Shown in pieces: positions 39,626 through 61,713 of a stretch of DNA of 64,000 nucleotides. The stretch's first letter is position 1. Each line of letters starts with the position of its first letter. Made by a program: the position numbers and the translations under genes. The DNA is taken from NCBI GenBank assembly GCA_017871115.1, contig JAFCIZ010000006.1:3224001-3288000 (forward strand). Reading direction: 5' to 3'. The DNA comes from Cunninghamella blakesleeana (lineage: Eukaryota; Mucoromycota; Mucoromycetes; Mucorales; Cunninghamellaceae). Under the pieces are notes generated by a model that was not told the origin of the DNA, searched no databases, and worked only from the letters and a program-made list of their open reading frames with translations.

Positions 39626-39830
39626 ACTAAGTAATTAAATTTTTGATAGGTGTGTTGATGTTATTGTTTACTAATTTTTTTTTTTTGTGTTACTAGCTTA
39701 TTTTTTTTTTTTTTTTTTGATAACTGATATTATAATTTTTTTTTTTGTTGATTTTGTTGAATTAAGATAGGTAAAAAGTTGTTATTAAGTGATATATATG
39801 TTGATTGTATGGTGTGAGTATAGCTTTTTA

Positions 39831-39852
39831 CGTCTTCAATCGTCTTTGGACG
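39831..39852 (-). promoter_or_regulatory. Spacer hairpin, element 1 copy c
   Basis: Sense strand CGTC, 14-nt loop starting CAA and ending TGAA, then GACG, followed by an A-rich AAAAGCT tail. The stem extends to ACGTC/GACGT here. Confidence 0.6.
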
Positions 39853-40058
39853 TTTGTTGTATTAAATAATTTTATAAGTTGTGTGTTATTGTTTTTTTTT
39901 TTTTTGACTATATATATATTGTTGATTAAAAATAATTGTTGTATTATATAAAAAATGTTTGAATAATATTGTTGTATAAAATTTGTTGTAAAACTAATAA
40001 AAATAAATGTAAAATAATTGTTAATAATATAATGTTATGTTAATAGATTAGCTTTTAA

Positions 40059-40079
40059 CGTCTTCAATCGTCTTGGACG
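40059..40079 (-). promoter_or_regulatory. Spacer hairpin, element 1 copy b
   Basis: Sense strand CGTC, 13-nt loop (CAA...TGAA), GACG, then TTAAAAGCT. It is embedded in a 38-40 nt block identical to copy a. Confidence 0.6.
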
Positions 40080-40153
40080 CTTGTTGTATGAAATAAACTA
40101 TTGTGATAATAAAAATAAAAATCTTGATATTAATTTGTTGGATTAGCTTTTAA

Positions 40154-40174
40154 CGTCTTCAATCGTCTTGGACG
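40154..40174 (-). promoter_or_regulatory. Spacer hairpin, element 1 copy a
   Basis: Same 13-nt loop and CGTC/GACG stem as copy b, 95 nt nearer the RNase H stop, with the same ACAACAAG leader and AAAAGCTAATC tail. Confidence 0.6.
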
Positions 40175-40264
40175 CTTGTTGTATAAAATATATTTATTCA
40201 TTTATTATTTCTTTTTTTTTTTTTTTTATATTTTATATATATATATATGTATTTTTTTTTTTCT

Positions 40265-43200
40265 TTAATAACCAAGTCTTGAGAGAAAATCAGCCGATTG
40301 TTGTTTTTTACCACTTCTATATATAACTTCAAATTCATAATCTGCTAAATAAGTGATCCAACGAGCTACCATACCAGTAGGTTTTGGTGATTTAATAAGC
40401 CATTTGAGTGGAGAGTGATCTGATAATACTGTAAATTTTTTCCCAAGTAAATATGGTCTAAAAATTTGCAAACTCCATATAAGAGCCAAACATTCTAACT
40501 TAGTTGCACTATAATTTGCTTCACTTTCTTTTAAACCACGACTGGCATATATAACAGGATGTTCTAGACCTTCTTCATCCAATTGTGATAATATAGTTCC
40601 AAGTCCATCAGTAGAAGCATCACAAACGATAATAAATGGTTTGTTATAATCAGCCCTTTTCAATATAGGTGCTTCAGTTAATTTTTGTTTTAATAATTCA
40701 AAAGATTTTGTTGTTTCCGCAGTCCAAGGTATTTTCTTTTTTGTTTTAGTGACATTATGTAATGGTCTAGCAATAGCTGCAAAGTTTTGTATAAATCTTC
40801 TATAATAAGAAGCTAATCCAATAAATCCTCTTATTTGCTTGACTGTAGTTGGTATAGGATAATTCTTTACTTTTTCTATTTTTGTAGGATCAGTTTTTAT
40901 TCCATCTTTAGTGATTATATATACAAGGAACTTCAATTCATCTTTAAAGAATACACATTTTTCAATATTGAATAGTAATCCGCCAAGTCTTGCACATTTA
41001 AATAATTCTTCTAAATCCAATAGATGTTGATCCAAATTATTCGAGTGTACATTAAGATCATCAATATATGCTACTAAGCATCTATTGATCATAGTTTTAA
41101 AACATATATCTATTAAACGTTGAAAGGTAGCTGGACTATTTACTAAACCCATAGGTAACATTTCATATTGATAAGTTCCAAACTTGGTGACAAAACCAGT
41201 TAATTCTTTACTATTTTCTTTCATAGGTACTTGATGGAACCCTGATCTAAGATCCAAAGCAGAAAATATTCTTGATACACCAATTTCATCAATTAAGTCA
41301 TCTATTCTTGGTAAAGGATATGCATCTACTTTAGTTTGAGCATTAAGCTTTCTATAATCAACTACCATTCTATAATCACCATTCTTCTTTTTGACTAAAA
41401 TTATGGGAGCAGTATAAGGAGTGTTAGCTGGTTTGATTATTCCAAGTTCACATAAACGATCCAATTCTGATTTTAAATATTCTTGTTCCATAGGGCTCAT
41501 ACGATAAGGTCTATGTCGTATTGGCATTGCATCTTGTTTTAGTATTATTTCATGTTCAAGAAGAGTAGTATGTCCCATCTTGTCATTATTCCAATCGAAT
41601 ACATCTTGATATTGTTGTATTAATTTCCAAAATTTTATTTTGTATTCCATTGGTATATTTCCAAGTTGTAGTTTATTTTTAAAAGATTCATCCAAAGTGT
41701 CTTCTTTAATATCTGTTTCAATATTATTAAATTCTATATATGTTTTATATGGACTAAGCTGGTCTACTAAATTGTATCCTTCTATACCTTCATTATTCCC
41801 ATTTTCATCTAAATTAAAAAATTCACTAATGATTTGATTAGGTGGTAGATCCATATTATTATCAGACTTATTAATTAAATTTATTGTTGTGTGATCATAA
41901 TTATTTTTTATTTTTGATTCATTTAATATGTTGCTTGTAGTTGTATGTATATCTTTATTAGAATCGATTTGTATTTGACATATTGAATACGGTGGTACAG
42001 TTAATCCATCTTTTCCTGTTGTAATAGTTGTTGTATCATCATCTTGTTGTATTTTTAAATTATTTTCTATTGTTGTAATATTATAATAATCATCTTCATC
42101 TTCGTCAGAATGTTCATCATGTTCCCATTCTTCTTCATCTGTTTCAAGGTCTGTTATATCAGTATCACTTTCATCTAAAGTTTCTTTTTCATTAATTGCA
42201 ATCTTGTTGTCTTGTTGATAATTTCCATTAATAGATTTAATTGATATGAGTGGTCTATCAGTTGATTTTAGAAATATAATAGGTAGTTCAGCTATTTTAT
42301 GTTTGTATGTAACCTTTAGAGTACTTGTTTTAAAATTAAGGAGAGCTTGTACATGACTTAACCAATTATTACCAAGAACTATATGAGCAGGACATCTGGG
42401 TAATACTTCCATATTGACCGGTATATTTATATCAGGTGTTACTTGTATATTAACATCATGTACAATACCTAAGGTTGGTTGTTTTGTTCCATTTCCTAAT
42501 ACAAATATGTTAGTAGAAGGTGCATCTATTTCTAATCCTAATAGCTTCATCATTGCTTTTGACATACATGATTTAGCTGCTCCACTATCAATTAATACTT
42601 TGACTTTTTTATTTTCTATAATTAAATTAGTGTAAGCTGCAGTTGTTATTACATCTTCATTATCTAATGTATTTAAGTGTGATGATTCTGTTATTTGTTG
42701 ATCCAATTTATTTTTTACTGATCTTCTTTTAGGTTTACATGCTGTTAATAGTTGTTTTCTTAAATGATGTGATGATTTTATTAAATCTCCAACTTCTATG
42801 TTAGCTTTTTGTTTGAATACATCTTTAATAATATCATATTCTATATCAATAGTTGCAGGAGGTGATCTTTTTCTTTTGGGTTTATCATTATTTTCAGATA
42901 TTTTATTATGATTAGATGGAATAGTTGTTGTATCAAGTGAAACGATATCGATATCATCCATCATTTCTTCTTTTTCTAAATCTTTATCTGTAATTTCATC
43001 ATCCATTCTGATTCTTTTAGCTGATCTTGATTTTTCTGTAACCCTTTTTGTTTTTGCTGATGTTTCATGATGTTTAACAACAGGAGGTTTTTCTATTCTT
43101 GCAGCATATAAATCATGATTATTTATATGCGGTCCATAATTATATTCATCTTCTATTTCTTCATTATTTAATAAAACATTCATGTTTTGATGGTTATCCA

Positions 43201-43426
43201 TATTACTTGTATTTTGTTGATTTTTTTGTGTATTATTTATTTTTTGTTGAGTATCCATATGATGTTGATTATTTATATTTTGTTGGTTATTTATATTTTG
43301 TTGGTTATTTATATTTTGTTGGTTATTTATATTTTGTTGGTTATTTATATTTTGTTGTTTATTTTTATTAATGGATTTATTATCAGGGACTGCCAATTGA
43401 CCATTATTAACAATTGCCCTATCTAG
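40265..43426 (-). CDS. Pol ORF of element 1: protease, reverse transcriptase, RNase H
   Basis: Read in the -1 frame after gag, about 1053 aa beyond the slip site. The N-terminal 240 residues are low complexity with repeated Asn/Gln blocks. The aspartic protease has LIDSGAAKS (active site DSG) and the distal IVLGNNWL. RT begins near RHRPYRMSP and has YRMVVDYRKLN, SALDLRSGFHQ, FGTYQYEMLPMGL and the catalytic YIDDLNVHS. RNase H follows (VCDAS, ATKLECLALIW, SDHSPLKWL) and ends FLSRLGY-stop, the same end as elements 2 and 4. There is no initiating ATG near the start, consistent with translation only by frameshift. One oddity: FLVYII replaces the usual FLGYII, which might weaken RT. Confidence 0.92.
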   Translation of the reverse strand, partial: LDRAIVNNGQLAVPDNKSINKNKQQNINNQQNINNQQNINNQQNINNQQNINNQHHMDTQQKINNTQKNQQNTSNMDNHQNMNVLLNNEEIEDEYNYGPHINNHDLYAARIEKPPVVKHHETSAKTKRVTEKSRSAKRIRMDDEITDKDLEKEEMMDDIDIVSLDTTTIPSNHNKISENNDKPKRKRSPPATIDIEYDIIKDVFKQKANIEVGDLIKSSHHLRKQLLTACKPKRRSVKNKLDQQITESSHLNTLDNEDVITTAAYTNLIIENKKVKVLIDSGAAKSCMSKAMMKLLGLEIDAPSTNIFVLGNGTKQPTLGIVHDVNIQVTPDINIPVNMEVLPRCPAHIVLGNNWLSHVQALLNFKTSTLKVTYKHKIAELPIIFLKSTDRPLISIKSINGNYQQDNKIAINEKETLDESDTDITDLETDEEEWEHDEHSDEDEDDYYNITTIENNLKIQQDDDTTTITTGKDGLTVPPYSICQIQIDSNKDIHTTTSNILNESKIKNNYDHTTINLINKSDNNMDLPPNQIISEFFNLDENGNNEGIEGYNLVDQLSPYKTYIEFNNIETDIKEDTLDESFKNKLQLGNIPMEYKIKFWKLIQQYQDVFDWNNDKMGHTTLLEHEIILKQDAMPIRHRPYRMSPMEQEYLKSELDRLCELGIIKPANTPYTAPIILVKKKNGDYRMVVDYRKLNAQTKVDAYPLPRIDDLIDEIGVSRIFSALDLRSGFHQVPMKENSKELTGFVTKFGTYQYEMLPMGLVNSPATFQRLIDICFKTMINRCLVAYIDDLNVHSNNLDQHLLDLEELFKCARLGGLLFNIEKCVFFKDELKFLVYIITKDGIKTDPTKIEKVKNYPIPTTVKQIRGFIGLASYYRRFIQNFAAIARPLHNVTKTKKKIPWTAETTKSFELLKQKLTEAPILKRADYNKPFIIVCDASTDGLGTILSQLDEEGLEHPVIYASRGLKESEANYSATKLECLALIWSLQIFRPYLLGKKFTVLSDHSPLKWLIKSPKPTGMVARWITYLADYEFEVIYRSGKKQQSADFLSRLGY

Positions 43427-43432
43427 TTTTTT
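43385..43432 (-). promoter_or_regulatory. Programmed -1 frameshift signal, element 1
   Basis: Sense strand: gag codons TCA AAA AAC TAG contain the slippery heptamer A AAA AAC (43426-43432). After a 5-nt spacer (TAGAT) comes AGGGCAATTG, an 11-nt loop, CAATTG, a 5-nt bulge and CCCT (43385-43420), giving a 10-bp bulged stem. Pol is open in exactly the -1 frame. Confidence 0.85.
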
Positions 43433-44580
43433 GATTGTTGGTTATCATATTGTTGATTATATTGTTGATGAGATTGCTGTTGTTGATATTGTTGAATTGG
43501 AACTTGTTGAGAATTAGATAAGTTCTGAGCTGAATTGTAATAATCATTATATTGTTGAGGTTGAGGTGGTTGTTTATCATTATAATAATTATTATTATGA
43601 TAATCTTGATTTTTCTGTTGTTGACGATAGAATCTTTTATTGTTGTATTGATTGTTATGTCTATTATAATTATTATTATTTGAATTATTAATTGGACCAT
43701 TAGATTTAGCTAATTCAGAACGTACAAGTTTGATTATATCATCACTAGACATATTATCATTATTTTTAGTTTGTTTTTTAGTATGCTGAATCTGTTCAAT
43801 TTTGTCATTCACATTCTTTTCCATAGTCTCAACATTAAGAACCAATCGTTCTAAGAGTTTTACTATTGGGTCAGAGTTTGAAGATAAATTTGTAACTGAT
43901 TCGTTTTTACTAAACTCCATAACATTAAATGAATTAATATTATTATGTGGATTATCAATTGTATTTCTATCCATAGCGTAACCAGAGTACAATAATTGTT
44001 CATGTTCAGTTGTACGGTTGTTTATCATTCCATAATTCATTGATTTGTTAGCTGACCACCAAGCTTCAGCATTTTTTAACCATTGTTCAGCAGTTATAGA
44101 AGCAAGAGCAATGCAATGTTTACTAATATTAGGATTCAATCCATATCTGAATCGCATAAGAATAATATCATCATCTTCTTTCTTAGCTAATCTAGCAACT
44201 TCTTGTAATCTTGAGTAAAAGTCCCTTGGATGTTCCTCGGTACCTTGTTTCATTTCGTTTAGCATTAATTTATAAGATTCTAAAAGTTCAGCAGTAACGA
44301 ATTTTGTTTCAAAAGCCGACATAACAATATCAAAAGTTAAAGAATCCTTGTATTGATCCTTAAGACAGTCCAAATAAGTTTTTGCAGACTTGTGTACTTG
44401 AGTTCTTAATATGGCTAGTTTTCTTGAGTCACTTGTAGTATTTGTGAGTTCTAAATAAGTTTCCAGCATTTGTCTGAAGTGGCGAAAGTCTTCACGCTCA
44501 CCTCCAGTAAAAGGAATGAGTTTAGGAATGAGCTTGAGCAAAGGTTGTTCTTGAGCCAACGCGGTATAATCGTAAGACAT
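43423..44580 (-). CDS. Gag of element 1
   Basis: 385-aa structural protein. The N-terminal half is a retrotransposon Gag capsid-type domain: IPFTGGEREDFRHFRQMLET, later EHPRDFYSRLQEVARLA and ILMRFRYGL, a pattern of the Retrotrans_gag family. The C-terminal 130 residues are Asn/Gln/Tyr-rich low complexity. No CCHC zinc knuckle is present, so RNA binding must rely on something else, perhaps the few Arg/Lys in the Asn-rich tail. It ends QQSKN-stop at the frameshift site. The leader between PBS and ATG is about 123 nt. Confidence 0.9.
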   Translation of the reverse strand: MSYDYTALAQEQPLLKLIPKLIPFTGGEREDFRHFRQMLETYLELTNTTSDSRKLAILRTQVHKSAKTYLDCLKDQYKDSLTFDIVMSAFETKFVTAELLESYKLMLNEMKQGTEEHPRDFYSRLQEVARLAKKEDDDIILMRFRYGLNPNISKHCIALASITAEQWLKNAEAWWSANKSMNYGMINNRTTEHEQLLYSGYAMDRNTIDNPHNNINSFNVMEFSKNESVTNLSSNSDPIVKLLERLVLNVETMEKNVNDKIEQIQHTKKQTKNNDNMSSDDIIKLVRSELAKSNGPINNSNNNNYNRHNNQYNNKRFYRQQQKNQDYHNNNYYNDKQPPQPQQYNDYYNSAQNLSNSQQVPIQQYQQQQSHQQYNQQYDNQQSKN

Positions 44581-44703
44581 TTTATGGTTGATAATCTTCA
44601 GTTTTAAAATGAATAAACTTCAAAGAGTGTACTTGCAGAATGTAATAGTTTTGAAATTTTCCTTAGTAGTTTTTAAAGTTTACCCTGTAGTTTTTTGAAG
44701 TTT

Positions 44704-44721
44704 CCCCGCCAGTGAGCACCA
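44704..44721 (-). other. Primer binding site, element 1
   Basis: Sense strand TGGTGCTCACTGGCGGGG, 4 nt after the 5' LTR end, beginning TGG as expected for pairing with a tRNA CCA end. The tRNA is not identified. It is conserved in elements 2 and 4. Confidence 0.7.
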
Positions 44722-44725
44722 AATA

Positions 44726-45475
44726 TGTTGTGTGTGTTTTTGGTAAGAGTTATTTTTGTTAAAATAAAATAAGAGAGTTTGTATTTATATTAATTATAAA
44801 TAAGATAATTCCAGTGAGCACCAGTTCTTGTTTTGTAAGTAGAACGACTTAATATAACGTAAAAGTAAAAAAAAATAAAAGGATAAAAAAAATAAAAATA
44901 TTTAAAAAAAATTCAAAAGTATATGCAAATGAATTTAAAAGTCAGAGAATAGATTATTATATAAAAAGAGTAATAATCAAATAAAGTAATAATAAAATTA
45001 AAAAATAAAATATAAAAGTTTATATATGTTGTATATAAATAAAAATAGAGATTTCACTTAAGAAATAAAAATATATCTGTTATAGTAATAAATATGATTT
45101 CAATTAAGAAATTAGTATAAAGTTAAAATAAAATAAAAATAAAAATTGGTTTGGACAAATAAAATATTTATTATATAAAATATTATCTTAAAAATTTGAC
45201 ATTTATATTTGACAAAGAAAAAAAAAAAACAAAAGAGAAAGAGAAATATTCTTTCCTATTTATATTAAAACAAAATTTATTTTTGAGAGAGAGAGAAAGA
45301 AGTCATACGGTCAAGGATGTGCGGTTGTGGATGTACATCTGTGGATGTGCGTCTGTGGATGTGCGTCTGTGGATGTGCGTCTGTGGATGTGCGGTTGTGG
45401 ATGTGAGCTTGACCAATTAAAACAAAAGTTAAAAAATTTTTTTAAACACCGGTAGGATCATTATCCTGCGCGACA
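44726..45475 (-). repeat. Element 1 right (5') LTR
   Basis: 750 bp, visually identical to 36753-37502. The PBS-like block is at 44811-44824 and the minisatellite at about 45313-45405. Confidence 0.92.
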
Positions 45476-45479
45476 CCTT

Positions 45480-46161
45480 TTATAGTTTTGGAAAGTAGAT
45501 AGTTTTGTAGTTTAGTTTAGTCGTCAGTGAGCACCAGTATCTTGTTTTATAAGTAGATACAACTTAGTTTAGATTGATAGTTTAAAATAAAAATAAAATA
45601 ATAAAATAAAATAAAATAAATTATATAATTGGATAAAGATCAACAATTATATAGACAAAATAATAAAATTAAAATAAAATAAATATAATATCGGATAAAG
45701 ATCAACGATTATTATAATAATATAATATAAAATAATATTGGATAGTAATCAACAATATTAATATAAAGTAAATATAATCTTTAGCTAAAAAGATGAGTTA
45801 AGAGAATTTAATATATATAAATCTTTATTTCAAATTAACTGAATATTAACTTCGTATTAACTGATTTTTCCAAATAAAATAAAATTTCGCTCCTTTATAT
45901 ATAAAAATGATCTGAATTCAAACCCAGATTGGTAGGTAAGTTATAAAGACCATTATAACAAGGAGGAGTATAAATTGATAAAGTTATAAAAGATAAAATA
46001 AATAAATATATATAAAATTATGAAATACTATTGGATAAAATATAAAGTTAATATATATATATATGCATATATTTATATATGCAAAAACACTTGTTTAAAA
46101 ATATATTTAAAAATTATTTTTAGGATTATTTAGGTATGATAAGTTCAACCATACCATAACA
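45480..46161 (-). repeat. Element 2 left (3') LTR, main part
   Basis: Continuation of the LTR interrupted by element 1. It ends ACCATACCATAACA, matching the end of 52918-53641. It contains CAGTGAGCACCAG at 45525-45537. Confidence 0.9.
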
Positions 46162-46655
46162 TCCCTCCACCACGATTTAGATGACGCCGCATCTTTTTCA
46201 TGCGTCCAGGTATCTAAATTTATTATCCTTTTGATCATAACCTGGTCGAGTTCATCATAAGAACCACTTTTAAATAGCTTCTTCAGTGTTTCTCTTCTTG
46301 CCCTAACATACTTATGGTAGCCTATTTTGTTTGGGTGAGCGCAACTTTGATGTATGTATTCCAAGGTTTGTGGAATAATAAAATTATCTACCAAATTTTC
46401 CTTTTCCCATCTTGCTTTTAATTCAGTAACCAAAATATCGAGTAGATTTTTATAGTTTTCCTGAATTTGAAACTTGATCCATTCACTAGTAGATATATCC
46501 GTGTTTAACCAATATAGAAGTTCAGGAGTTAAAAAATTTAAGTCAATAGGTTCGGTTATAGGTACCAATTCATCGAGTATGTTGTCAACTTCATGGGAAT
46601 CAACAAGATCTTCTTGAGAGAGTAGTTTGTTTGTTTGGTTATCTTGTGGAGTCAT
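46107..46655 (-). CDS. ORF4 of element 2, unknown accessory protein
   Basis: 182 aa, homologous in position and weakly in sequence to ORF4 of elements 1 and 4: LEYIHQSCAHP...YHKYVRARRETLKKLF... and a later LDTW. It is helical and soluble with no membrane span. The last 18 or so residues (from about VMVWLNLSYL) are encoded inside the 3' LTR, which begins at 46161. Start ATG at 46655, 171 nt after the integrase remnant. No family is recognised. Confidence 0.55.
   Translation of the reverse strand: MTPQDNQTNKLLSQEDLVDSHEVDNILDELVPITEPIDLNFLTPELLYWLNTDISTSEWIKFQIQENYKNLLDILVTELKARWEKENLVDNFIIPQTLEYIHQSCAHPNKIGYHKYVRARRETLKKLFKSGSYDELDQVMIKRIINLDTWTHEKDAASSKSWWRDVMVWLNLSYLNNPKNNF
46162..46174 (-). 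other. Polypurine tract of element 2
   Basis: Sense strand CGTGGTGGAGGGA directly before the LTR start TGTTATGG. It is read within ORF4. Confidence 0.6.
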
Positions 46656-46826
46656 CTTTAATATCGTTAATATTATTATTTTTTTTTTTTTGAATAAAGA
46701 AAAATTATAATATAATTTTTCCTTATTTATAGTTTTTTTTTTTTTTTCGGAATTTTAAATATATATATAAAGTTTTTCTTTTTTTTTTTTTTAAATTTTC
46801 TTTTTCCCATAAATTTTTTTTTTTTT

Positions 46827-48139
46827 TTATACGATTGTCTTTTTAGCAAAGTCAATCCAAAATACGTCAGGCATCTGCAACAACTTCAATTTATTGCCGT
46901 GTATTCTTCTTAGTTTGGTATTGGTCACGTTGAATTCTTTTATCAGATAAGTACCTTTACCTAAACTTTGATGAACAATATATTTGCCTTTCCAGTTATC
47001 TGATATTTTGCCACCCCAAGAGTTTGATTTTCTTCCAATATACATCATAACAATATCACCAATCCTAAAAGGCGGTTTCCATTCCTTCTTTTCATTATTA
47101 ATCTTCTTGTCAATGGCCTTCTTTTGATTCTTTTGGATTTCTTTATAAATTCTGCAGCGTCTTCTCTTATCTGTTTTAGTGACAATAATTCTTTTGCAGC
47201 GCGTACGTGTAACTGATATTGGAATCTTGCAGAATTTACTTCTATTGGTATATCCATAAATAAATCATAAGGTGTCTTTGCTTCATGCCCGTAAGTTAAA
47301 TAAAAAGGAGAATAATTTGTTGATTTTTGTTTGATAGTACGATAGGCAAATAGAACGGATGGTAAATATTGATCCCATACTTGTTTTTCTTTATTGTTTA
47401 ACTTTTTTAGAATAGCGCCTAAAGTGGAATTAAACTTTTCTATCAACCCGTTTGCTTGCGAATTCCCAACACTTATAGTTTTATGGTGGATATTGTATTG
47501 GAAACAGACTTTTTTTATTAATTCACCTATAAATGGCTTTCCATTATCTGTAATTATTATGTGTGGCGCACCGTGTCGACAAATAATATCTTCATAAATA
47601 AACAATGCTATTTCGGCTGCAGTTTGGAATTTTAATGCACGAGCTTCAACCCATTTCGTTAGATAATCAATACCTGCAACTATATATCTATATCCATTTT
47701 TAGATGTAGAAATATGTTTGACATCTAATGCCCATTGGAAGAAAGGTTTGGATGTTGTTGGAATAGGGTGTAATAATTCGTTATGTTTAGCAGGACCTGT
47801 AGTTTGACATCTACTGCATTTCTTGACGTAATTCTGTACATCTTTTGTCATATTTTCCCAATAATAATGATTTGCAAGTTTGAATAATGTGTTGTGGTAA
47901 CCCATATGTCCTCCTAATGGATGTTGATGATGCATGTATAATGCTTCTGACACTTGATCTTTATTCAAAACTTTTCTTATCGTCTGCAGGTTAATATTAT
48001 ATCGGTACAATTCGTTGTTGTGTATGATAAATTTGTGGGAATGTTTTTGTAAATAATTTTTTTCTTTATCGGTGATGTTGTCAGGTAATTTTAATGTTGA
48101 TAAATAATTTTTTATTAAATCAATTTTGTTTTGTTCCAT
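46827..48139 (-). pseudogene. Integrase of element 2, broken by a one-base frameshift
   Basis: Frame one (48139-47045) covers the start (MEQNKIDLIKNYL), the HHCC zinc domain (HQHPLGGHMG...C-S-R-C) and the full DDE core (ALDVKH, TDNGKPF, GLIEKFN), then runs off into an unrelated basic tail. The expected continuation (NQKKAIDKK, WKPPFRIGDIV and the GPY/F-like SWGGKISDNW module) is in another frame, ending at 46827. The break is at about 47137, where elements 1 and 4 have KSQENQ or similar. A one-base loss in an A/C run explains it. It could also be a sequencing error. Confidence 0.8.
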
Positions 48140-48384
48140 TTTTACTGATATTTGTTGTAAATTTCTTGTATTTAGATTCTTGAATATATTGTTGAATAAT
48201 ATTTTAGTAATACTGATAAATAGTGTTGATCGATTATAAGTGTAGGTATGCAGCTTTTTACGACTTCAGCAAAACTTGGTCGAGTAGTAAGTAATTGAAT
48301 TTTTTTTTTTTTGTTTTTGTTTGTTTTTGTTTTTTGTTTTTTTTTTTTTATATATATGTATTTATATTTATGCATTTTGTTATT
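48140..48384 (-). other. RNase H-integrase spacer of element 2
   Basis: 245 nt, the shortest of the three spacers. It is A-rich on the sense strand, with one hairpin at 48261-48282. Confidence 0.6.
48261..48282 (-). promoter_or_regulatory. Spacer hairpin, element 2
   Basis: Sense strand CGAC, 14-nt loop (CAA...TGAA), GTCG, then TAAAAAGCT. The stem differs from CGTC/GACG at two positions that compensate each other. Confidence 0.6.
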
Positions 48385-51300
48385 TTAGTAGCCTAGCCTT
48401 GAAAGAAAATCAGCAGCTTCTTGTTTTCTTCCAGCTCTATATTTGATTTCAAATTCATAATCGGCCAAATATGTGATCCATCTTGCAACAATTCCAGTAA
48501 CTTTTGGTGATTCAATTAACCATCTTAACGGCGAATGATCAGATATAACAGTAAACTTCTTTCCCAATAAATACGGTCTGAATATTTGTAAACTCCATAC
48601 CAAAGCAAGACATTCTAATTTAGTAGCACCATAGTTTAATTCACTATTCTTCAATCCTCTACTGGCAAATATTATAGGATGTTCACGACCATCATCATCT
48701 AGTTGTGTTAATATAGAACCTAGTCCTAGTTGTGAAGCATCGCATACAACAATGAATGGTTTATCAAAATCAGGTCTTCTTAATATTGGAGCATTGATTA
48801 GATTTTCCTTTAATTTTTCAAAAGCTTTTGTTGTATCTTCTGTCCATGGTATTCTCTTTTTGGTTTTTGTTTGCTCATGTAATGGCCTAGCAGTAGCAGC
48901 AAATCCTTTTACAAATCTTCTGTAATATGAAGCTAAACCTAAGAAGCCTCTAACTTGTTTAATTGTTTTTGGTATTGGATAATCTTTAATCTTTGCAATT
49001 TTATCTGGATCAGTCTTGATTCCTTCAGCAGTTATTATGTAGCCTAAAAATTTTAATTCATCTTTAAAGAATATACACTTTTCAATATTAAACACCAATC
49101 CACCTCTTCTAGTGTATTCGAATAATCTTTCCAAGTCAATTAGGTGTTGATCCAAGTTTTTGGAATGTACATTAAGATCATCAATAAATGCAACTAGATT
49201 ACTATGCAGCAAATCTTTATAACAGATATCAATTAATCTTTGGAAAGTAGCAGGACTATTCACCAAACCCATTGGCAGCATTTCATATTGATAAGTACCA
49301 AATTTAGTTGTAAAGCCAGTTAATTCTTTACTTGATTCTTTTAATGGAACTTGATGGAAACCAGATCTTAAATCCAAAGCTGAAAATATTTTTGATTTTC
49401 CAAGTTCGTCAATTAAATCATCAATACGTGGTAGCGGATATGAATCAACTTTTGTATGTGTATTCAGTTTACGATAGTCAACTACCATACGATATTCACC
49501 ATTCTTCTTTTTGACTAAGATAATTGGTGCAGTAAAAGGAGAATTTGAAGGTTTTATAATTCCCAATTCACAAAGACGGTCTAATTCATTCTTCAAATAT
49601 TCTTGTTCACTTGGTCCCAATCTATATGGTCTGTGTCTGATAGGTAATGTATTTTCTTTTAATATTATTTCGTGTTCTATTAATGTAGTTTTTCCCATTT
49701 TATCATTATTCCAATCAAAGATATCTTGATAATGGTGTATTAATTTATAAAATTTCTTTTTATATTCTTCAGGTATATCACCCATTTGGATTTTTCCTTT
49801 TATATTAGGATCAAGTATAATTTCTTCAGTATCATCTTCCAGCAGCGAAGGTGGTAAATCTCTATAGTGGTCTTCAAAATCATAACCAGTATATTCGACA
49901 TATGGATCCTTTTGTATTGGAAATTGTTTCCTATTTATGAATTCACCTAGTATGTTGTTTGGCGGTATTTCCATCATGTCTTCAGTTTTATTTATAATTT
50001 CCAAGATTACATCAAAGTCTTCGTGCTTGTCCAAAAATTCGTCAAGGCGTTTAAAATATGGAACAATTATATTTTCATCAATAGCATAATTGATTTGACA
50101 AATATGATAAGGTGGTATTGATAAACCAGTACTTCCACTTAATATCATCATAGTGCCTTCATCTTTATTTGAACGTGTTTGGATTACTGGACTTTTTTCA
50201 TGATCATCCATTAGATAAAAGTCTTCATCATCTTGTACAGCATCTTCTTCATTATTATCAGTAGATTCTTCGTCATCAATCGAATCTTCATCATTAGAAT
50301 CAGTATCATCTTCAGATTCACTAGTATTTGATAGATTATCAGCTACTTCTTCACCTTGTGGCTGTTCCAATTCATATTTAACATTTGTAACACGTTGATA
50401 TGTATATGGACGTTCATTTGTTTTTATATATGTAATTGGAATTTCTTGTGTACGACGTTTATAAGTCACCTTTAAGGTACCTGTTTTAAAGTTTATTACT
50501 GCTTGTGCATGATCCAACCAACTAGTACCTAACACTATATGTTGTGGACACTTTGGTAATACTTCAACATCAATTGGTATAGTTAACCCTTCACCAACAG
50601 TAATAGGAACATCATGAATTACACCTAGTGCAGGTTGTTTAGTACCATTTCCCATTACAAAAATACTTGTAGATGGTGCATCAATTTCTAGATCTAATGA
50701 TTTCATCATTGCCCTGGACATACAAGCTCTTGCAGCTCCACAATCAATTAATCCAGTAACTTTTACATCATTCACCATTATATCGGCATATGCAGCAGTA
50801 GTTACAACATCACTATTATCAATAGAATTTAGCTGTACATCTTTTTCTTTACCTTTATCAACTGGTCTTTTTATTCTTGATTGTCTACAAGCTGTAATCA
50901 ATTCTCTTCTTAATGGAGCGGATATAGTTATAAGATCTCCAACATTAATATTAGCTTTTTGATGTAATATATCTTCAGAAATATTATAATTTATTGGTAA
51001 TGGTTGTGATTTCCTTTTTGGTGTCTTCTTCTTTTTATCAACAAGTGGTTCTTGAATGGATACTTTTTTCCTTTTGTCATTTATTATTTGTACTTCTTCC
51101 ATCATATCATTATTATTTGATTTAGAAGGTTCAGCTACATCTTGATTTGGATGCTGTGAAAATACGTTTTGGAAAAATGGATTATTTTGTGGTGGAACAT
51201 GTGTATGATCACGAATATCCTGTTGTATTTGTTGTGGAATAGATTTTGTAGCAGCTGCTGATGTACTTGGTTTTTCTATAGTTTTCCTTGTACGTGGTTT

Positions 51301-51624
51301 TCTTATTGCTTTTTCAACAACTGGTGGTTTTGGATTTGCAGCAACATTAAAATCGCAATCATTGATTTCTTGATCACCTTCTAATATATTTTGAAGATAA
51401 TAATGATCTTGTGCTGATAAATAATCATTATGGTTGTCCATTATGTTATGTGGGACGTAAGTATTTGTATTGTAATATCGTGAATTTATGTTGGAATTAT
51501 TTGGTGTATTATAGTTGTGATATTTATTCATATTATTTTCTTGATATAGTTGATTATCATTTGGATGGATGGATTTTGTAATAGGGATTCCCAATTGACC
51601 ATCTGTAACAATTGCCCTATTTAG
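48385..51624 (-). CDS. Pol ORF of element 2: protease, reverse transcriptase, RNase H
   Basis: About 1079 aa in the -1 frame after gag, with the same layout as element 1. The protease region has LIDCGAARA, so the usual DSG/DTG active-site triplet is DCG; the distal IVLGTSWL is kept. RT has YRMVVDYRKLN, SALDLRSGFHQ and FIDDLNVHS, with FLGYII intact. RNase H carries VCDAS, ATKLECLALVW and SDHSPLRWL, ending FLSRLGY-stop. An acidic stretch of about 40 residues lies between protease and RT. There is no ATG near the true start. Confidence 0.92.
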   Translation of the reverse strand, partial: LNRAIVTDGQLGIPITKSIHPNDNQLYQENNMNKYHNYNTPNNSNINSRYYNTNTYVPHNIMDNHNDYLSAQDHYYLQNILEGDQEINDCDFNVAANPKPPVVEKAIRKPRTRKTIEKPSTSAAATKSIPQQIQQDIRDHTHVPPQNNPFFQNVFSQHPNQDVAEPSKSNNNDMMEEVQIINDKRKKVSIQEPLVDKKKKTPKRKSQPLPINYNISEDILHQKANINVGDLITISAPLRRELITACRQSRIKRPVDKGKEKDVQLNSIDNSDVVTTAAYADIMVNDVKVTGLIDCGAARACMSRAMMKSLDLEIDAPSTSIFVMGNGTKQPALGVIHDVPITVGEGLTIPIDVEVLPKCPQHIVLGTSWLDHAQAVINFKTGTLKVTYKRRTQEIPITYIKTNERPYTYQRVTNVKYELEQPQGEEVADNLSNTSESEDDTDSNDEDSIDDEESTDNNEEDAVQDDEDFYLMDDHEKSPVIQTRSNKDEGTMMILSGSTGLSIPPYHICQINYAIDENIIVPYFKRLDEFLDKHEDFDVILEIINKTEDMMEIPPNNILGEFINRKQFPIQKDPYVEYTGYDFEDHYRDLPPSLLEDDTEEIILDPNIKGKIQMGDIPEEYKKKFYKLIHHYQDIFDWNNDKMGKTTLIEHEIILKENTLPIRHRPYRLGPSEQEYLKNELDRLCELGIIKPSNSPFTAPIILVKKKNGEYRMVVDYRKLNTHTKVDSYPLPRIDDLIDELGKSKIFSALDLRSGFHQVPLKESSKELTGFTTKFGTYQYEMLPMGLVNSPATFQRLIDICYKDLLHSNLVAFIDDLNVHSKNLDQHLIDLERLFEYTRRGGLVFNIEKCIFFKDELKFLGYIITAEGIKTDPDKIAKIKDYPIPKTIKQVRGFLGLASYYRRFVKGFAATARPLHEQTKTKKRIPWTEDTTKAFEKLKENLINAPILRRPDFDKPFIVVCDASQLGLGSILTQLDDDGREHPIIFASRGLKNSELNYGATKLECLALVWSLQIFRPYLLGKKFTVISDHSPLRWLIESPKVTGIVARWITYLADYEFEIKYRAGRKQEAADFLSRLGY

Positions 51625-51630
51625 TTTTTT
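51583..51630 (-). promoter_or_regulatory. Programmed -1 frameshift signal, element 2
   Basis: A AAA AAC at 51624-51630 directly before the gag stop TAA, spacer TAAAT, then AGGGCAATTG, 11-nt loop, CAATTG, 5-nt bulge, CCCT (51583-51618). Same geometry as elements 1 and 4. Confidence 0.85.
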
Positions 51631-52742
51631 GAACCATTAACTGGTGTGTTATTTTGATTATTATTTGGTGGATTATTATAATTATTTTGTTGTGGATAGT
51701 TATATTGTGGATTATAATTATTATTATTCTGCATTTGATTTCCTTGGTAATAATAATCTCTGTTGTTATAATTATCTTCAGGTAAATATTGATTGTTATA
51801 ATTATGATTATTGTTGTTATTATTATTATTATTATATTGACGATAATTGTTATACTGATTATTTCTGTATTTTTGATTATTATTTCTGTTGTAATTATTA
51901 GGTCCATTATATGTTTGGTTGTTACGATTATTATTGTTGTTGTTTCTTTGGTTATTGTACGAGCCTCTTTTGTCTTCTAATTTGGTGTTTATTAATTTTT
52001 CCATGTGACCTAAAAGTCTTTGCATCAAAGCAGATTCTCCATCAACATGTTCAGCAGTATTTAAAGATGTATTGCCATTATAATCACCATAATTATTATT
52101 TGACTTCTTTTTATGGCCTCCAGCAAATCTATTAGCATTAGTAAGATTACATACAGATGGTAATGATTGTATGTGTCTTGTCTTCCACCAATTTTCAGCA
52201 TAGTTATACCATTGATTCAATGTTTCAGCACCTTGATCCATACAGTGCATTCTGATTTCTTCTTTTAAACCAGCACGGAATCTCATCAATATAATATGAT
52301 CATCTTTTAATTGTGCCAATCTTGCCATTTCTTGGATACGTGCCAAAAAGTTCTTTGGTCTTTCGTCATTGCCTTGTTTAATAGTACCAAGTGCAATTTC
52401 GTATGATAATATCAATTCTTTGGTGACATACTTTTCCCTTAAAGCATTCATCAATTTTTGATAATCATTAGCCATATTAGGATCTTGTTCTAATTGTTCA
52501 AAATAGAATTCAGCAGGACCAGACAATTGCACCTTCAAGATAATTGCCCTTCTATCCATACCAACTCTAGATAATTTAAAATAATTTTCCAAGGACTTTT
52601 CAAAATAACGAAAGTCTTCGTCATCAGAACCTGAAAAAGTTAAAAGATTAAGCTTCAGCTTAGCAGCAAGGTTAGGATCATGGTAATGATCATGATTTTC
52701 CAACGCGGTTTGCTCGATACTTGATTTTTGTGGATTTTCCAT
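51621..52742 (-). CDS. Gag of element 2
   Basis: 373-aa Gag. The capsid-type N-terminal half contains LTFSGSDDEDFRYFEKSLEN, RPKNFLARIQEMARLA and ILMRFRAGL. The C-terminal 130 residues are extremely Asn-rich with Tyr and Arg. No CCHC knuckle. It ends VNGSKN-stop on the slippery heptamer. Confidence 0.9.
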   Translation of the reverse strand: MENPQKSSIEQTALENHDHYHDPNLAAKLKLNLLTFSGSDDEDFRYFEKSLENYFKLSRVGMDRRAIILKVQLSGPAEFYFEQLEQDPNMANDYQKLMNALREKYVTKELILSYEIALGTIKQGNDERPKNFLARIQEMARLAQLKDDHIILMRFRAGLKEEIRMHCMDQGAETLNQWYNYAENWWKTRHIQSLPSVCNLTNANRFAGGHKKKSNNNYGDYNGNTSLNTAEHVDGESALMQRLLGHMEKLINTKLEDKRGSYNNQRNNNNNNRNNQTYNGPNNYNRNNNQKYRNNQYNNYRQYNNNNNNNNNHNYNNQYLPEDNYNNRDYYYQGNQMQNNNNYNPQYNYPQQNNYNNPPNNNQNNTPVNGSKN

Positions 52743-52894
52743 TGGAATATAAAGATAAGTTTTTGAAATAGGATGATAAAGTTTGTATATTTTTAAAGTA
52801 GTTGTTTAACTTGAATTTAAGTATTCTTGATTTTATTCTTTTATAGATTTAGTTATTCTTTGATAATTAGTATTTCCCCGGTTTTTAGTATTAC

Positions 52895-52912
52895 CCCCGC
52901 CAGTGAGCACCA
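52895..52912 (-). other. Primer binding site, element 2
   Basis: Sense strand TGGTGCTCACTGGCGGGG, identical to element 1, 5 nt after the LTR end. Confidence 0.7.
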
Positions 52913-52917
52913 AAATA

Positions 52918-53641
52918 TGTTGTGTAAATTTTGGGTTGTTTGAAAAGTAGAATTTCCTTTTATAGTTTTGGAAAGTAGATAGTTTTGTAGTTTAGTTTAG
53001 TCGTCAGTGAGCACCAGTATCTTGTTTTATAAGTAGATACAACTTAGTTTAGATTGATAGTTTAAAATAAAAATAAAATAATAAAATAAAATAAAATAAA
53101 TTATATAATTGGATAAAGATCAACAATTATATAGACAAAATAATAAAATTAAAATAAAATAAATATAATATCGGATAAAGATCAACGATTATTATAATAA
53201 TATAATATAAAATAATATTGGATAGTAATCAACAATATTAATATAAAGTAAATATAATCTTTAGCTAAAAAGATGAGTTAAGAGAATTTAATATATATAA
53301 ATCTTTATTTCAAATTAACTGAATATTAACTTCGTATTAACTGATTTTTCCAAATAAAATAAAATTTCGCTCCTTTATATATAAAAATGATCTGAATTCA
53401 AACCCAGATTGGTAGGTAAGTTATAAAGACCATTATAACAAGGAGGAGTATAAATTGATAAAGTTATAAAAGATAAAATAAATAAATATATATAAAATTA
53501 TGAAATACTATTGGATAAAATATAAAGTTAATATATATATATATGCATATATTTATATATGCAAAAACACTTGTTTAAAAATATATTTAAAAATTATTTT
53601 TAGGATTATTTAGGTATGATAAGTTCAACCATACCATAACA
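52918..53641 (-). repeat. Element 2 right (5') LTR
   Basis: 724 bp, uninterrupted. It preserves the empty target of element 1 at about 52954-52965 and carries CAGTGAGCACCAG at 53005-53017. Confidence 0.93.
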
Positions 53642-53706
53642 GTTGTTTGAAAAATAGAATTTCCTTTTATAGTTGTTGTGTAAATTTTTGGTTGTTTGAA
53701 AAATAG
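53642..53706 (-). repeat. Truncated older LTR heads (right side of element 2)
   Basis: TTTGAAAAATAGAATTTCC follows the GTTG duplication and continues the LTR head seen at 36685-36710. A second copy of the same head (TTGTGTAAATTTTTGGTTG, TTTGAAAAATAG) then stops at element 3. These are remnants of earlier same-orientation insertions. Confidence 0.6.
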
Positions 53707-53904
53707 TGTTGTGTGTGTTTTTGGTAAGAGTTATTTTTGTTAAAATAAAATAAGAGAGTTTGTATTTATATTAATTATAAATAAGATAATTCCAGTGAGC
53801 ACCAGTTCTTGTTTTACAAGTAGAACGACTTAATATAATGTAAAAGTAAAAAGGTAAAAAGATAATATAAAATAAAAATATTCAAAAAAAATTCAAAAGT
53901 ATAT

Positions 53905-54704
53905 TGTTGTGTGGGTTTTTGTTTAAGATTTATTTTTTTTGAAATGAGGAATGAGTATTATAAGTAATATTTGATATGTATAATATAATTCCAGTGAGCA
54001 CCAGTTCCTGTTTTATAAGTAGAACGACTTAATATAAAGGAATAAAAAAATAAAATAAAATAAAGTAAAAAATAAAGAAATAAAAAAATAAAAATTTTAA
54101 AAGGTGTAATATAATTGCAGGATTAAAGAGAGATTTCAGTAACCGCAATGTAAAATAAATATAATAAGAAAATTTAAAAAAAGTAATTTAAATTTGAGTG
54201 GTTGAAAAATATTTAAGTAAATAAATATAAAAATGTAAAATAAAATAATATGGGTTGTTATAAAAAATAGATAAATTCAGTAACTTGAATGAGTTATAAG
54301 TAAAATAAGTTAAAATTATAAAATATGATTTATAAAGTGGACAAGTTCAATAATTATTTAATAGATAATAATTTATTATAAAAATTTGACAATTTTAAAA
54401 GAAAGAAAGAGAGAAAAATTGGTTCTATTTATATTTAAAAAAAAAATTAAAATTTATAAGGATCGGGTAAGGAACAAAAGCACCTTGGTGTTTTTGCACC
54501 TTTGGTGTTTTTGCACCTTTGGTGTTTTTGCACCTTGGTGTTTTTGCACCTTGGTGTTTTTGCACCTTGGTGTTTTTGCACCTTGGTGTTTTTGCACCTT
54601 GGTGTTTTTGCACCTTGGTGTTTTTGCACCTTGGTGTTTTTGCACCAGTAGCACAAAGCCAATCCAAAAAAGGAAAGAAAAATCAGAGAGCGTTATTGCT
54701 AACA
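53905..54704 (-). repeat. Element 4 left (3') LTR
   Basis: 800 bp with ten units of CACCTT(T)GGTGTTTTTG at 54481-54642 and the PBS-like CAGTGAGCACCAG at 53992-54004. Several overlapping ORFs over the minisatellite are not genes. Confidence 0.92.
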
Positions 54705-55141
54705 CCCCCAACGCCAACAAAAGATGGACCTCCATCTTTATTAAATCCCACTTGGCTCCAAAGATCATTCTTATTAACATTTCTTGCAAATATTTTATTG
54801 AATTTAGAGTTACCTAAACCAGAGAGCAAATAATTTACAAGCTTTGATCTTTCCATCTTATACGCAATGAGTTCTTCTTTAGTAGCAGGAGGTTGGAGCT
54901 TTGTATGTACAAACCGAACAACAACTGGACTAAGTTGCTTGGAGAAGGTAGTTTGCATCTTCACTTTTAACTTCTTTATTTTTTCATAATCATTGACATA
55001 TATAGGATAGATAAACTTAATAAACGTCTTGTATGAGTCTTCTTCATTAAGTGAGTCAAATTCCGTGAGGGCTTGTAAAGTTTCGTCATAAAGATTATCT
55101 TCGTCCAAAGGAACCCGTTCGGTATTAATTGGCATATCCAT
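54683..55141 (-). CDS. ORF4 of element 4, unknown accessory protein
   Basis: 152 aa. It aligns with ORF4 of element 1 over VVRFVHTKLQPP...LIAYKMERSKLVNYLLSGL (element 1: VVKLLHTSLGKP...LINYRRERMELLNELLSPL) and a following FNKIFAR...DLW. It ends GGPSFVGVGG and then a short tail encoded in the 3' LTR. No membrane span, zinc motif or signal peptide. Start ATG at 55141. Function unknown; conservation across three families in an otherwise compact element argues that it is used. Confidence 0.6.
   Translation of the reverse strand: MDMPINTERVPLDEDNLYDETLQALTEFDSLNEEDSYKTFIKFIYPIYVNDYEKIKKLKVKMQTTFSKQLSPVVVRFVHTKLQPPATKEELIAYKMERSKLVNYLLSGLGNSKFNKIFARNVNKNDLWSQVGFNKDGGPSFVGVGGVSNNAL
54705..54715 (-). 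other. Polypurine tract of element 4
   Basis: Sense strand GGCGTTGGGGG before the LTR start TGTTAGC. It is G-rich but interrupted by pyrimidines, so weaker than in elements 1-3. Read within ORF4. Confidence 0.5.
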
Positions 55142-55233
55142 TTTATAAAAATATATTTTTGTATTATTAAAATAAGTGTTTTTGTATTGTTAAAAGATTT
55201 TCAAAAGAAAATGTGAATATGTGAATGAAAGTT

Positions 55234-55267
<34 letters not shown>

Positions 55268-55500
55268 TTTTTTCTTTTTTTCGTAGTTTGAAAAATATAC
55301 TTCTTTTTTTTTTTTTTGTAATCATCTTTTTGGTTCTTCCTTTTTTTTTTTTTTTTGGTTTATGTTTATCTTTTATGTATATTATTTTAATGTAGTTATT
55401 ATATAAATTCTTCTTCGGGTAAATACGTGAATTAATATTTTAAATTTCATTATTAATTATATTTATATATTTCATTATTATCTCTTTTTTTTTTTTTTTT

Positions 55501-56820
55501 TTATATGTCCAATCCATAGGTTTTATTTACGTGATTATTCCAATATACATCTGGTAATTGCAATATTTTTAGTCTGTTTCCGTGTATTCTTCTTAATTTT
55601 GTTCTTGTTGTATCCAAGGATTTTATTATATACGTGCCTTTTCCAAGTGATTGATGTATTGTATATTTTCCTTGCCACATATCGGAAATCTTACCAGACC
55701 AAGAATTTGATTTTATACCAGTATATAAAGTTACTATATCCCCAATTCTAAATGCTGGTTTCCATTCTCTATTACTGTTTAAAACCTTTTTATCAATAGC
55801 CCGTTTTTGGTTTTCTTGAGATTTTTCTATCATTTTTGCAGCTGTCGATCTTATCTGATTGAGTGATATAATTTCCTTATTTGTACGTAATTTTAATTGT
55901 GTATCAAAATTATAAGAATTAAAATCTATAGGTTTGTCATGTTGATCGAACGGGGTTTTAACATTATATCCGTAAGTTAAAAAGAATGGTGATTGTTGAG
56001 TAGATGCCTGTCTGATTGAACGATAAGCAAATAGAACTGATGGTAGATATTGGTCCCATATTGATTTTTCCGTGGAAGTTACCTTTTTTATAATAGACCC
56101 AAGTGTAGAATTAAATTTTTCAATTAATCCATTGGCTTGAGAATTTCCAACTGAGATTGTGTTGTGATGAATATTATATTGATAGCAAACTTTCTTTATA
56201 AGGTCACTGATAAATGGTTTACCATTGTCGGTTATAATTAAATGAGGAGTACCATGCCGACATATTATTTCTTCATAAATAAACAAAGCAACTTCGGATG
56301 TAGTTTGATAACGTAGCGCACGCGCTTCTACCCATTTTGTTAAATAATCTATTCCTGCAATAATATATCTATAACCGCCTTTAGATGTGGGAACATGTTT
56401 AACGTCTAATCCCCATTGTTCAAAAGGTTTTGACTTGACAGGTATTGGATATAAGAATTCATTTAACTTTCTTGAACCAGTTGATTGACATCTTGGACAT
56501 TTTTTTATATATATTTGTATATCTTTTGCCATGCCATCCCAATAATATCTTATAGATAGTTTATATAAAGTATTGTGATAACCTATATGACCACCTAAAG
56601 GATGTTGATGATACATATAAAGTGCTTCTATGGCTTCTTGTTTATTTAATACTTGTCTTAAGGTTTGGTGATAAATATTAAACTTATATAATTTATTATT
56701 GCGAATGATAAAGTTGTGTGAATTACGTTGTAAGTATCTTTTCATTTTTGCTGTTGTGTTTTCAGGTATTTTTAATGTAGTAAGATATTCTTTTAATTTA
56801 TCTATAGTTTGTTGGTCCAT
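55501..56820 (-). CDS. Stand-alone integrase ORF of element 4
   Basis: 439 aa, the same length as in element 1, with its own ATG (MDQQTIDKLKEYL). HHCC domain HQHPLGGHIG...C-P-R-C. DDE core GLDVKH, TDNGKPF, GLIEKFN. C-terminal GPY/F-like SWSGKISDMWQGKYTIHQSL. No chromodomain. Preceded by a 608-nt non-coding spacer after the RNase H stop. Confidence 0.92.
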   Translation of the reverse strand: MDQQTIDKLKEYLTTLKIPENTTAKMKRYLQRNSHNFIIRNNKLYKFNIYHQTLRQVLNKQEAIEALYMYHQHPLGGHIGYHNTLYKLSIRYYWDGMAKDIQIYIKKCPRCQSTGSRKLNEFLYPIPVKSKPFEQWGLDVKHVPTSKGGYRYIIAGIDYLTKWVEARALRYQTTSEVALFIYEEIICRHGTPHLIITDNGKPFISDLIKKVCYQYNIHHNTISVGNSQANGLIEKFNSTLGSIIKKVTSTEKSIWDQYLPSVLFAYRSIRQASTQQSPFFLTYGYNVKTPFDQHDKPIDFNSYNFDTQLKLRTNKEIISLNQIRSTAAKMIEKSQENQKRAIDKKVLNSNREWKPAFRIGDIVTLYTGIKSNSWSGKISDMWQGKYTIHQSLGKGTYIIKSLDTTRTKLRRIHGNRLKILQLPDVYWNNHVNKTYGLDI

Positions 56821-56985
56821 TTTTTTTTTTTTTTTTAAGTATAATTATATATATTTGTTGTTTTTATTATTGTTGTTAGATTTGTTGTTTAGGCTTTGTT
56901 GTAAGTTATTTTAATAATATAATTTAATAAGTGTTATTTATGTTGTAATAATTATGTATTTTGTTGGTTTGGATATAGCTTTTAA

Positions 56986-57007
56986 TGTCTTCAATCACCT
57001 TTGGACA
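56986..57007 (-). promoter_or_regulatory. Spacer hairpin, element 4 copy b
   Basis: Sense strand TGTC, 14-nt loop (CAA...TGAA), GACA, then TTAAAAGCT. The outer base pair is changed on both sides relative to CGTC/GACG. Confidence 0.6.
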
Positions 57008-57336
57008 AATAATAATGATATATATATATATATATATATATTTTTTTGTGTGTGTGTTTGTTTTTTTTTTTTTTTAATTTTGATATTGTTGAAATAATTG
57101 TTTGTTAAATAACTGTTATAAAAGATTTGTTGTAATATAAATAATTGTTGTATAAAGTAAAAATAATTGTTGTAAATAAATAAAATGTCTGTTGTAAATA
57201 AATAATATAACTATTGTAAAATATAACTTTTTGTTGTATGTGTTGTTGAAATAATAATAACTGTTGTAGAATGTTGTCTTTTGTAAAATAATTGTAATAT
57301 AATAAATTGTTATGTTAATATTTGTCTAGCTTTTAT

Positions 57337-57358
57337 CGTCTTCAATTTCCCTTGGACG
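57337..57358 (-). promoter_or_regulatory. Spacer hairpin, element 4 copy a
   Basis: Sense strand CGTC, 14-nt loop (CAA...TGAA), GACG, then ATAAAAGCT. Confidence 0.6.
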
Positions 57359-57428
57359 TATATTAAAAATATAATTTATAATAATTCTTTTTTTTTTTTT
57401 TTTTTAAATATTATTATTATTATTATTT

Positions 57429-61695: not shown

Positions 61696-61713
61696 CCCCG
61701 TCAGTGAGCACCA
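61696..61713 (-). other. Primer binding site, element 4
   Basis: Sense strand TGGTGCTCACTGACGGGG, one base different from elements 1 and 2, 4 nt after the LTR end. Confidence 0.7.

Follow-up and report, generated by a model that had tools for sequence, protein, structure and literature searches.

How does a long terminal repeat (LTR) retrotransposon express its integrase when that enzyme lies outside the pol reading frame? The question is raised by a 64,000-nucleotide stretch of the Cunninghamella blakesleeana genome (contig JAFCIZ010000006.1, positions 3,224,001 to 3,288,000 of the forward strand; hereafter the window), which holds three LTR elements, numbered 1, 2 and 4, all on the minus strand and near a tRNA-Gly gene. 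In these elements the pol open reading frame (ORF) stops after RNase H, and the integrase follows as an ORF with its own ATG, beyond a spacer that carries a repeated motif.

Integrase in a reading frame of its own

Pfam places protease, reverse transcriptase (RT) and RNase H domains in the pol ORF, with no rve domain, and H2C2 and rve domains in the ORF that follows. The order protease-RT-RNase H with integrase (IN) downstream matches that of Ty3/gypsy elements (Metaviridae), as do the flanking LTRs, identical in element 1 at 750 of 750 positions. In the usual Ty3/gypsy arrangement, as given in the accessible part of PMC3248453, IN is the last part of the pol ORF, which is not so here. Because IN lies outside the pol ORF, we named the elements Ty3/gypsy-like with a split pol, an assignment made by Pfam and similarity searches. 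The ORFs and spacers concerned are:

40265..43396, minus strand, pol ORF of element 1 (protease-RT-RNase H, without an integrase domain; Pfam), ending ...ADFLSRLGY-stop
39626..40264, minus strand, RNase H-integrase spacer of element 1 (639 nt), interpreted as the integrase leader
38306..39625, minus strand, stand-alone integrase ORF of element 1, 439 aa (Integrase_H2C2, rve)
48385..51594, minus strand, pol ORF of element 2 (protease-RT-RNase H; Pfam)
48140..48384, minus strand, RNase H-integrase spacer of element 2, 245 nt
47045..48139, minus strand, integrase ORF of element 2, 364 aa, frame broken in this copy
57429..60485, minus strand, pol ORF of element 4 (protease-RT-RNase H; Pfam)
56821..57428, minus strand, RNase H-integrase spacer of element 4, 608 nt
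55501..56820, minus strand, stand-alone integrase ORF of element 4, 439 aa

Full pol ORFs end in ...ADFLSRLGY-stop, the exception being locus L047, with SRLDY. Among the 44 best pol relatives (out of the 120 best listed), 43 end three residues past the SR of RNase H, including proteins named from Absidia glauca and Rhizopus; over the 120, an rve domain is present in 5 and an H2C2 domain only in 4 more. Of 11 integrases that were aligned, including two from the window, 10 share one start methionine and the remaining sequence is a fragment; integrase identity is 51-65% in the first 50 relatives listed. The integrase start has A at -3 and G at +4 in the full spacers, to which this statement is confined (the context list also held some RT ATGs from partial loci). 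Because the relatives' pol ends after RNase H and their integrases share the start methionine, the split looks old and common to the Mucorales. Ty3/gypsy-type elements of Rhizopus, Absidia and Parasitella are alike in a pol that ends at or near SRLGY and in a stand-alone integrase start, and differ in that some Rhizopus integrases carry a long C-terminal extension. When the relatives' DNA was searched for, viral contigs gave none and genome contigs only two distant loci in a rumen metagenome-assembled genome. Two contigs of the metagenome-assembled 'Bacilli' genome Tb.RUG.176 hold Ty3-type integrase reading frames (L102 and L103), probably as eukaryotic contamination.

A conserved motif in the spacer

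The preliminary description of the window had reported six copies of a hairpin motif in the spacers before the integrase ORFs. A scan of both strands, allowing up to 8 mismatches to four motif alleles, found exactly these six, all on the minus (element-sense) strand and within the stretch that runs from the RNase H stop to the integrase ATG. The motif has the form CGTC-CAA-N6..7-TGAA-GACG-NN-AAAAGCT, with variants; the coordinates given here include the AAAAGCT tail, so that they reach 9 nt beyond the earlier ranges on the low side:

39822..39852, minus strand, integrase-proximal motif of element 1, CGTC/GACG
40050..40079, minus strand, middle motif of element 1
40145..40174, minus strand, distal motif of element 1
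48252..48282, minus strand, motif of element 2, CGAC/GTCG
56977..57007, minus strand, proximal motif of element 4, TGTC/GACA
57328..57358, minus strand, distal motif of element 4, CGTC/GACG

The three stems are as first described, the second copy of element 4 having CGTC/GACG. The 3' half of the motif, TGAAGWCRNNAAAAGCT, has 6 matches in the window and 0 in 100 shuffles, whereas the bare loop frame is not enriched there (CAA-N6-TGAA 15 against 21.3 expected, CAA-N7-TGAA 27 against 21.5). At up to 9 mismatches there is no match on the opposite strand or in reversed spacers, and the window scan found no copy in the LTRs.

We also searched the 31.9-Mb, 12-contig genome of the host. The full pattern has 228 matches (142 + 86) and its reversed control 0 (0 + 0), the 3' half alone 239 against 0, and the arms without the tail 235 against 7; one tail-less arm match lies at C1:3461014. 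Searches with a relaxed stem gave 13 matches against 3 in the control and, in another version, 0 against 1. Eighty-three of the first 100 listed motif matches lie at most 1.3 kb upstream, on the same strand, of one of 96 listed integrases, the integrase search having scored 96 of 182 candidates. Four of the remaining 17 matches were looked at: two are in an element with an RNase H end and an integrase start, and two in a copy with an RNase H end in which the integrase start was not found. No copy is clearly at a host gene among the first 100 listed places.

Families were lettered by us according to integrase identity to element 1: A (element 1, 100%), A' (95%), A'' (92%), B (element 4, 76%), B' (77%), B'' (76%) and C (element 2, 65%). 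Their spacers range from 221 nt (L105, family C) to 1046 nt (B') and hold one to nine motifs. Among 47 distinct full spacers there is one motif in C (8 spacers), two in B (18), three in A and A' (15) and five to nine in B' (6), where they form a tandem array with a 40-bp unit and a variable copy number. Two loci, L047 and L044, are outside the 47 because the script missed their pol end; L047 was cut by hand for some tests. The distance between motifs drifts freely in B, from 305 to 374 nt, and by eye the motif flanks cannot be aligned between A, B and C. The earlier observation that the motif is retained within an otherwise fast-diverging AT-rich spacer was thus borne out, and supports a conserved cis-element tied to separate integrase expression. 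Recombination among copies as the sole source of the similarity is unlikely, given these flanks; within family B' the array copies are clearly homogenised. A central polypurine tract was rejected because, on visual comparison, the motif is unlike the run of purines that precedes the 3' LTR.

The loop, said always to run from CAA to TGAA, does so throughout the window but not genome-wide. The proximal motif of family B'' has CGA instead of CAA (L104), and L047 (family A'', integrase frame open) holds two decayed and two intact motifs. L047 also contains a long stretch rich in TACAACAA repeats, and L107, a shorter copy of family A'', has the same two decayed motifs; these two loci are on contigs C5 and C6.

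Is the motif an RNA hairpin, with a 4-bp stem (plus 3 bp) as the functional feature, maintained by compensatory double substitutions as the preliminary description proposed? Two pairs do change on both sides and keep pairing, one from C-G to U-A in the B families (proximal motif) and one from U-A to A-U in family C, and two further one-sided changes retain a G-U pair. We tested covariation on eleven 31-nt alleles. Paired cells make up 97.7% (shuffles 89.5%) and the covariation score is 0.318 (shuffles 0.141), values that 1 in 500 shuffles equals in either case. Pairs changed on both sides number just 2 against 0.9, in related copies, and 36 of 500 shuffles are as high. Six 30-nt alleles (three paired, three broken) were omitted from this test, MAFFT having put their loop gap in the stem; all 17 alleles were counted by script. 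Twelve of the 17 pair fully, one has a wobble and four are broken (9, 1 and 4 among 14 distinct cores), the broken ones all in elements with an open integrase frame. These unpaired stems, CGCC/GACG in family A' and CGTC/GACA in B'', are substitutions of the kind that the preliminary description had itself named as speaking against the hairpin.

In full spacers the predicted probability of the stem is 0.00-0.06 for seven of the nine proximal copies, the CGCC allele accounting for two of these seven, and 0.36 and 0.43 for the two proximal copies of C spacers; other copies lie at 0.10-0.94 (distal ones at 0.12-0.94), except for the CGTC/GACA allele at 0.0. Folded in isolation, the paired alleles are weak (-1.3 to -3.5 kcal/mol, z -2.2 to 0.4), and several alleles fold best as another small hairpin, CGUC-CAA-GACG. 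In 10 of 11 spacer pieces the predicted structure does not exceed that of mononucleotide shuffles, and no Rfam match overlaps the spacers up to E = 1. The proposed extension of the stem by CAA/TTG pairing, with an AA bulge, is broken in family C, though the letters CAA and TGAA persist there; because they are kept without pairing, family C points to recognition of the sequence. Of the functional RNA element first proposed, the conserved cis-element is supported and the RNA hairpin only in part, and we regard a stem that is itself the functional feature as rather unlikely.

Covariation cannot decide between RNA and DNA, since the arms would covary identically if they were an inverted repeat in DNA to which a protein dimer binds. 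The motif could be an internal promoter acting at the DNA level, an inverted-repeat box for a dimeric host or element factor that yields a separate integrase mRNA, with tandem copies that are enhancer-like or resemble an upstream activating sequence. The arms form a dyad, in which double changes are equally expected, and the copies are multiple, up to the variable 40-bp arrays of B'. In Sirevirus, as far as the available text of PMC2829016 goes, palindromic boxes upstream of env were taken as support for an internal promoter, and multiple symmetric boxes likewise stand in non-coding DNA directly upstream of a separately expressed ORF. Sirevirus boxes also fill the LTRs, have mostly CGG-CCG cores and precede env (same source and scope), whereas the present motif is absent from the LTRs of the window, stands before the integrase and includes a long conserved portion without symmetry (TGAAG..AAAAGCT). 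The lack of copies on the opposite spacer strand, the lack of any clear host-gene copy among the places listed and the freely drifting distance between motifs all speak against a promoter, which we consider possible but doubtful.

A proposed ATG-free leader and possible routes to the integrase

Counted over the 47 distinct full spacers, the sequence that follows the first motif amounts to 22,721 nt and has 0 ATG; 22 of these spacers do have an ATG, in every case before the first motif or within it. Six representative spacers have 0 ATG against 9.35 expected, and none of 2000 mononucleotide shuffles is as low. With motifs masked, ATG occurs 4 times, against 31 AGT, 29 TAG, 14 GTA, 13 GAT and 7 TGA, in a set of nine spacers and two fragments from a tenth, which share about 80 nt. 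As a control, six spacers between the integrase and a fourth ORF (ORF4) show no ATG deficit, with 11 against about 13 expected (ORF4 was defined by the longest ORF that begins with ATG, a choice that makes it too short in L059). The RNase H-IN spacers are poor in G and have, on the sense strand, 43 runs of at least 8 nt of A and 0 of T. We read the missing AUG, the scarcity of G and the sense-strand A-tracts jointly as features of a scanned, unstructured leader. A short conserved ORF downstream of the first motif is ruled out, there being no ATG.

Several results weigh against this reading. The spacer copies share ancestry and represent about three independent lineages; with one spacer each of A, B and C, 3.81 ATG are expected and 40 of 2000 shuffles reach zero. 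The deficit is weaker under dinucleotide-preserving shuffles because TG itself is rare (pooled, 2 ATG against 3.0 expected, with 150 of 500 shuffles as low; per spacer, 12 to 340 of 1000 as low), and two short C spacers show no ATG deficit of their own (386 and 554 of 1000 mononucleotide shuffles). The A-run asymmetry is also unspecific, since three IN-ORF4 spacers have 14 A-runs and 1 T-run; in the LTRs, sense A/T runs are 0/4 in element 1, 1/1 in element 4 and none in element 2.

The split, the motif, its association with the spacer and the absence of ATG can be read directly from the DNA. From them we infer separate translation, scanning of the spacer, action at the RNA level and a bound factor, and the mechanism we favour, to which we give an even chance, combines these. 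Gag-Pol would end after RNase H, and the integrase would be translated from its own ATG as a separate cistron, with the RNase H-IN spacer, free of AUG from the first motif to the integrase AUG, serving as its scanned 5' leader. The motif would be the conserved cis-element of this leader, most likely an RNA site recognised by a protein and perhaps shown on a short stem, and would let ribosomes reach the integrase AUG on genomic RNA by internal entry or re-initiation; an integrase mRNA starting near the pol stop would be an alternative route. Internal initiation was among the roles first suggested for the motif, and the ATG-free spacer favours this class of explanation. Long, A-rich, AUG-free leaders, as here, are a feature of cap-independent translation and re-initiation; to our knowledge, a conserved repeated motif is not a feature of such A-rich cap-independent leaders. 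On balance the motif would seem to act on RNA, the internal DNA promoter being the strongest rival, and ATG avoidance over the whole stretch from the first motif, beyond a short proximal leader, argues against that promoter.

Two other explanations involve the RNA in different ways. In the first, the repeats are a packaging or docking signal through which genomic RNA recruits the integrase, as foamy-virus RNA recruits Pol. The lack of a Gag-Pol fusion would create the need for such a signal, and most families have several motif copies per element. According to the accessible part of PMC7828637, foamy-virus Pol is made separately and needs purine-rich elements of the genomic RNA. The likeness lies in an enzyme, usual in Gag-Pol, that is made separately (here IN only) and in several genomic-RNA cis-elements; the foamy virus differs in that IN is kept inside Pol and a spliced mRNA is used (same part of PMC7828637). 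In the present elements only IN is split off, and by eye there is no conserved splice acceptor. The 5' arm of the motif is not purine-rich, family C has a single copy, and docking alone would leave the ATG avoidance unexplained; we find this putative docking improbable.

In the second, a 5' leader exon is spliced to the spacer or to the integrase ORF alone, as for retroviral env and foamy pol, and the motif is a splicing signal. Downstream ORFs of retroelements are often expressed in this way; foamy pol is an example in the available portion of PMC7828637. Because no conserved acceptor AG was seen by eye before the integrase ATG or beside the motif (no splice-site prediction was run), we disfavour splicing and hold it to be very improbable. 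TTAG stands in A and TTAA in A', with none in B.

Element context and relation to other Mucorales elements

The remaining features of the three elements are:

36753..37502, minus strand, 3' LTR of element 1, identical to the 5' LTR
44726..45475, minus strand, 5' LTR of element 1, from LTR pair comparison
43423..44580, minus strand, gag-position ORF of element 1, no Pfam match
51621..52742, minus strand, gag-position ORF of element 2, no Pfam match
60512..61591, minus strand, gag-position ORF of element 4, no Pfam match
37469..37999, minus strand, ORF4 of element 1 (176 aa), without a Pfam match; its preceding spacer served as ATG-depletion control
36839-36850, 44812-44823, 45525-45536, 53005-53016, 53793-53804, 53992-54003 and 61805-61816, LTR copies of TGGTGCTCACTG
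44710-44721, 52901-52912 and 61702-61713, TGGTGCTCACTG at the primer-site position

Element-2 LTR sequence lies on either side of element 1, beginning at 36711 and resuming past 45475, and we therefore read element 1 as nested in the 3' LTR of element 2. The G+C content of the window, in 8-kb steps, is 24-30%, and its gene for mitochondrial intermediate peptidase has 98% identity to the Cunninghamella echinulata counterpart. This identity places the host among the Mucorales, in or close to Cunninghamella, and led us to reject a dictyostelid origin, which the AT content and the position of an element beside a tRNA gene had at first suggested.

At the gag-pol junction all three elements have, on the minus strand and in the gag frame, TCA AAA AAC TAR (43426-43434, 51624-51632 and 60515-60523), which has the form of a -1 slippery site for frameshifting, with the gag stop after it. 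Given this conserved site, Gag-Pol itself looks conventional. At the other end, ORF4 of element 1 is weakly similar (E = 0.003, calculated for one comparison only) to the extension at the C-terminus of an integrase protein of 722 aa from Rhizopus, and may represent an integrase tail that has become detached; the ORF of element 2, compared in the same way with another extended integrase, showed no similarity.

The LTRs carry a copy of the putative primer-binding sequence (sense TGGTGCTCACTG) directly after a short hairpin, whose stems (GTTCT/AGAAC in element 1, GTATC/GATAC in element 2, GTTCT/GGAAC in element 4) show several double substitutions; by eye, this LTR hairpin appears to covary better than the spacer motif. 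A search for a tRNA primer with a perfect GCTCACT/AGTGAGC acceptor, its arms 45-75 nt apart, gave 0 matches. The element-4 LTRs (about 54480-54650 and 62290-62430) contain a tandem array of a palindromic box, CACCTTGGTGTTTTTG, which resembles the Sirevirus LTR boxes and whose copy number apparently differs between the two LTRs (800 against 768 nt).

Among related fungi, the most successful element of Rhizopus oryzae is of Ty3/gypsy type and does not cluster with any other sequence (accessible part of PMC3248453), and Mucor LTR elements have protease, RT, RNase H and integrase domains, with a shared ORF left unstated in the available part of PMC11943222. In the text portions, figures excluded, of the open-licence literature covered (including PMC3248453, PMC11943222 and PMC12440569), we found no description of a split integrase in Mucorales elements. 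As judged from its sequence, a split integrase with a motif-bearing spacer would thus be a variant of the Ty3/gypsy arrangement that we have not found described for this order.

What would such a variant mean for the elements? A separately made integrase needs other solutions for expression, dosage and delivery. In the usual Ty3/gypsy element the integrase enters the particle within Gag-Pol. Because one genome holds about a hundred copies, many with open frames, and the repeated motif can be counted, the question is directly testable. It is conceivable, if a long shot, that a clade of Mucorales LTR elements has separated its integrase from Gag-Pol, makes it with the help of an internal leader that has no AUG, and also recruits it in trans through the motif as an RNA docking site. 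If true, such docking in trans would be a foamy-virus-like solution, independently evolved for one enzyme.

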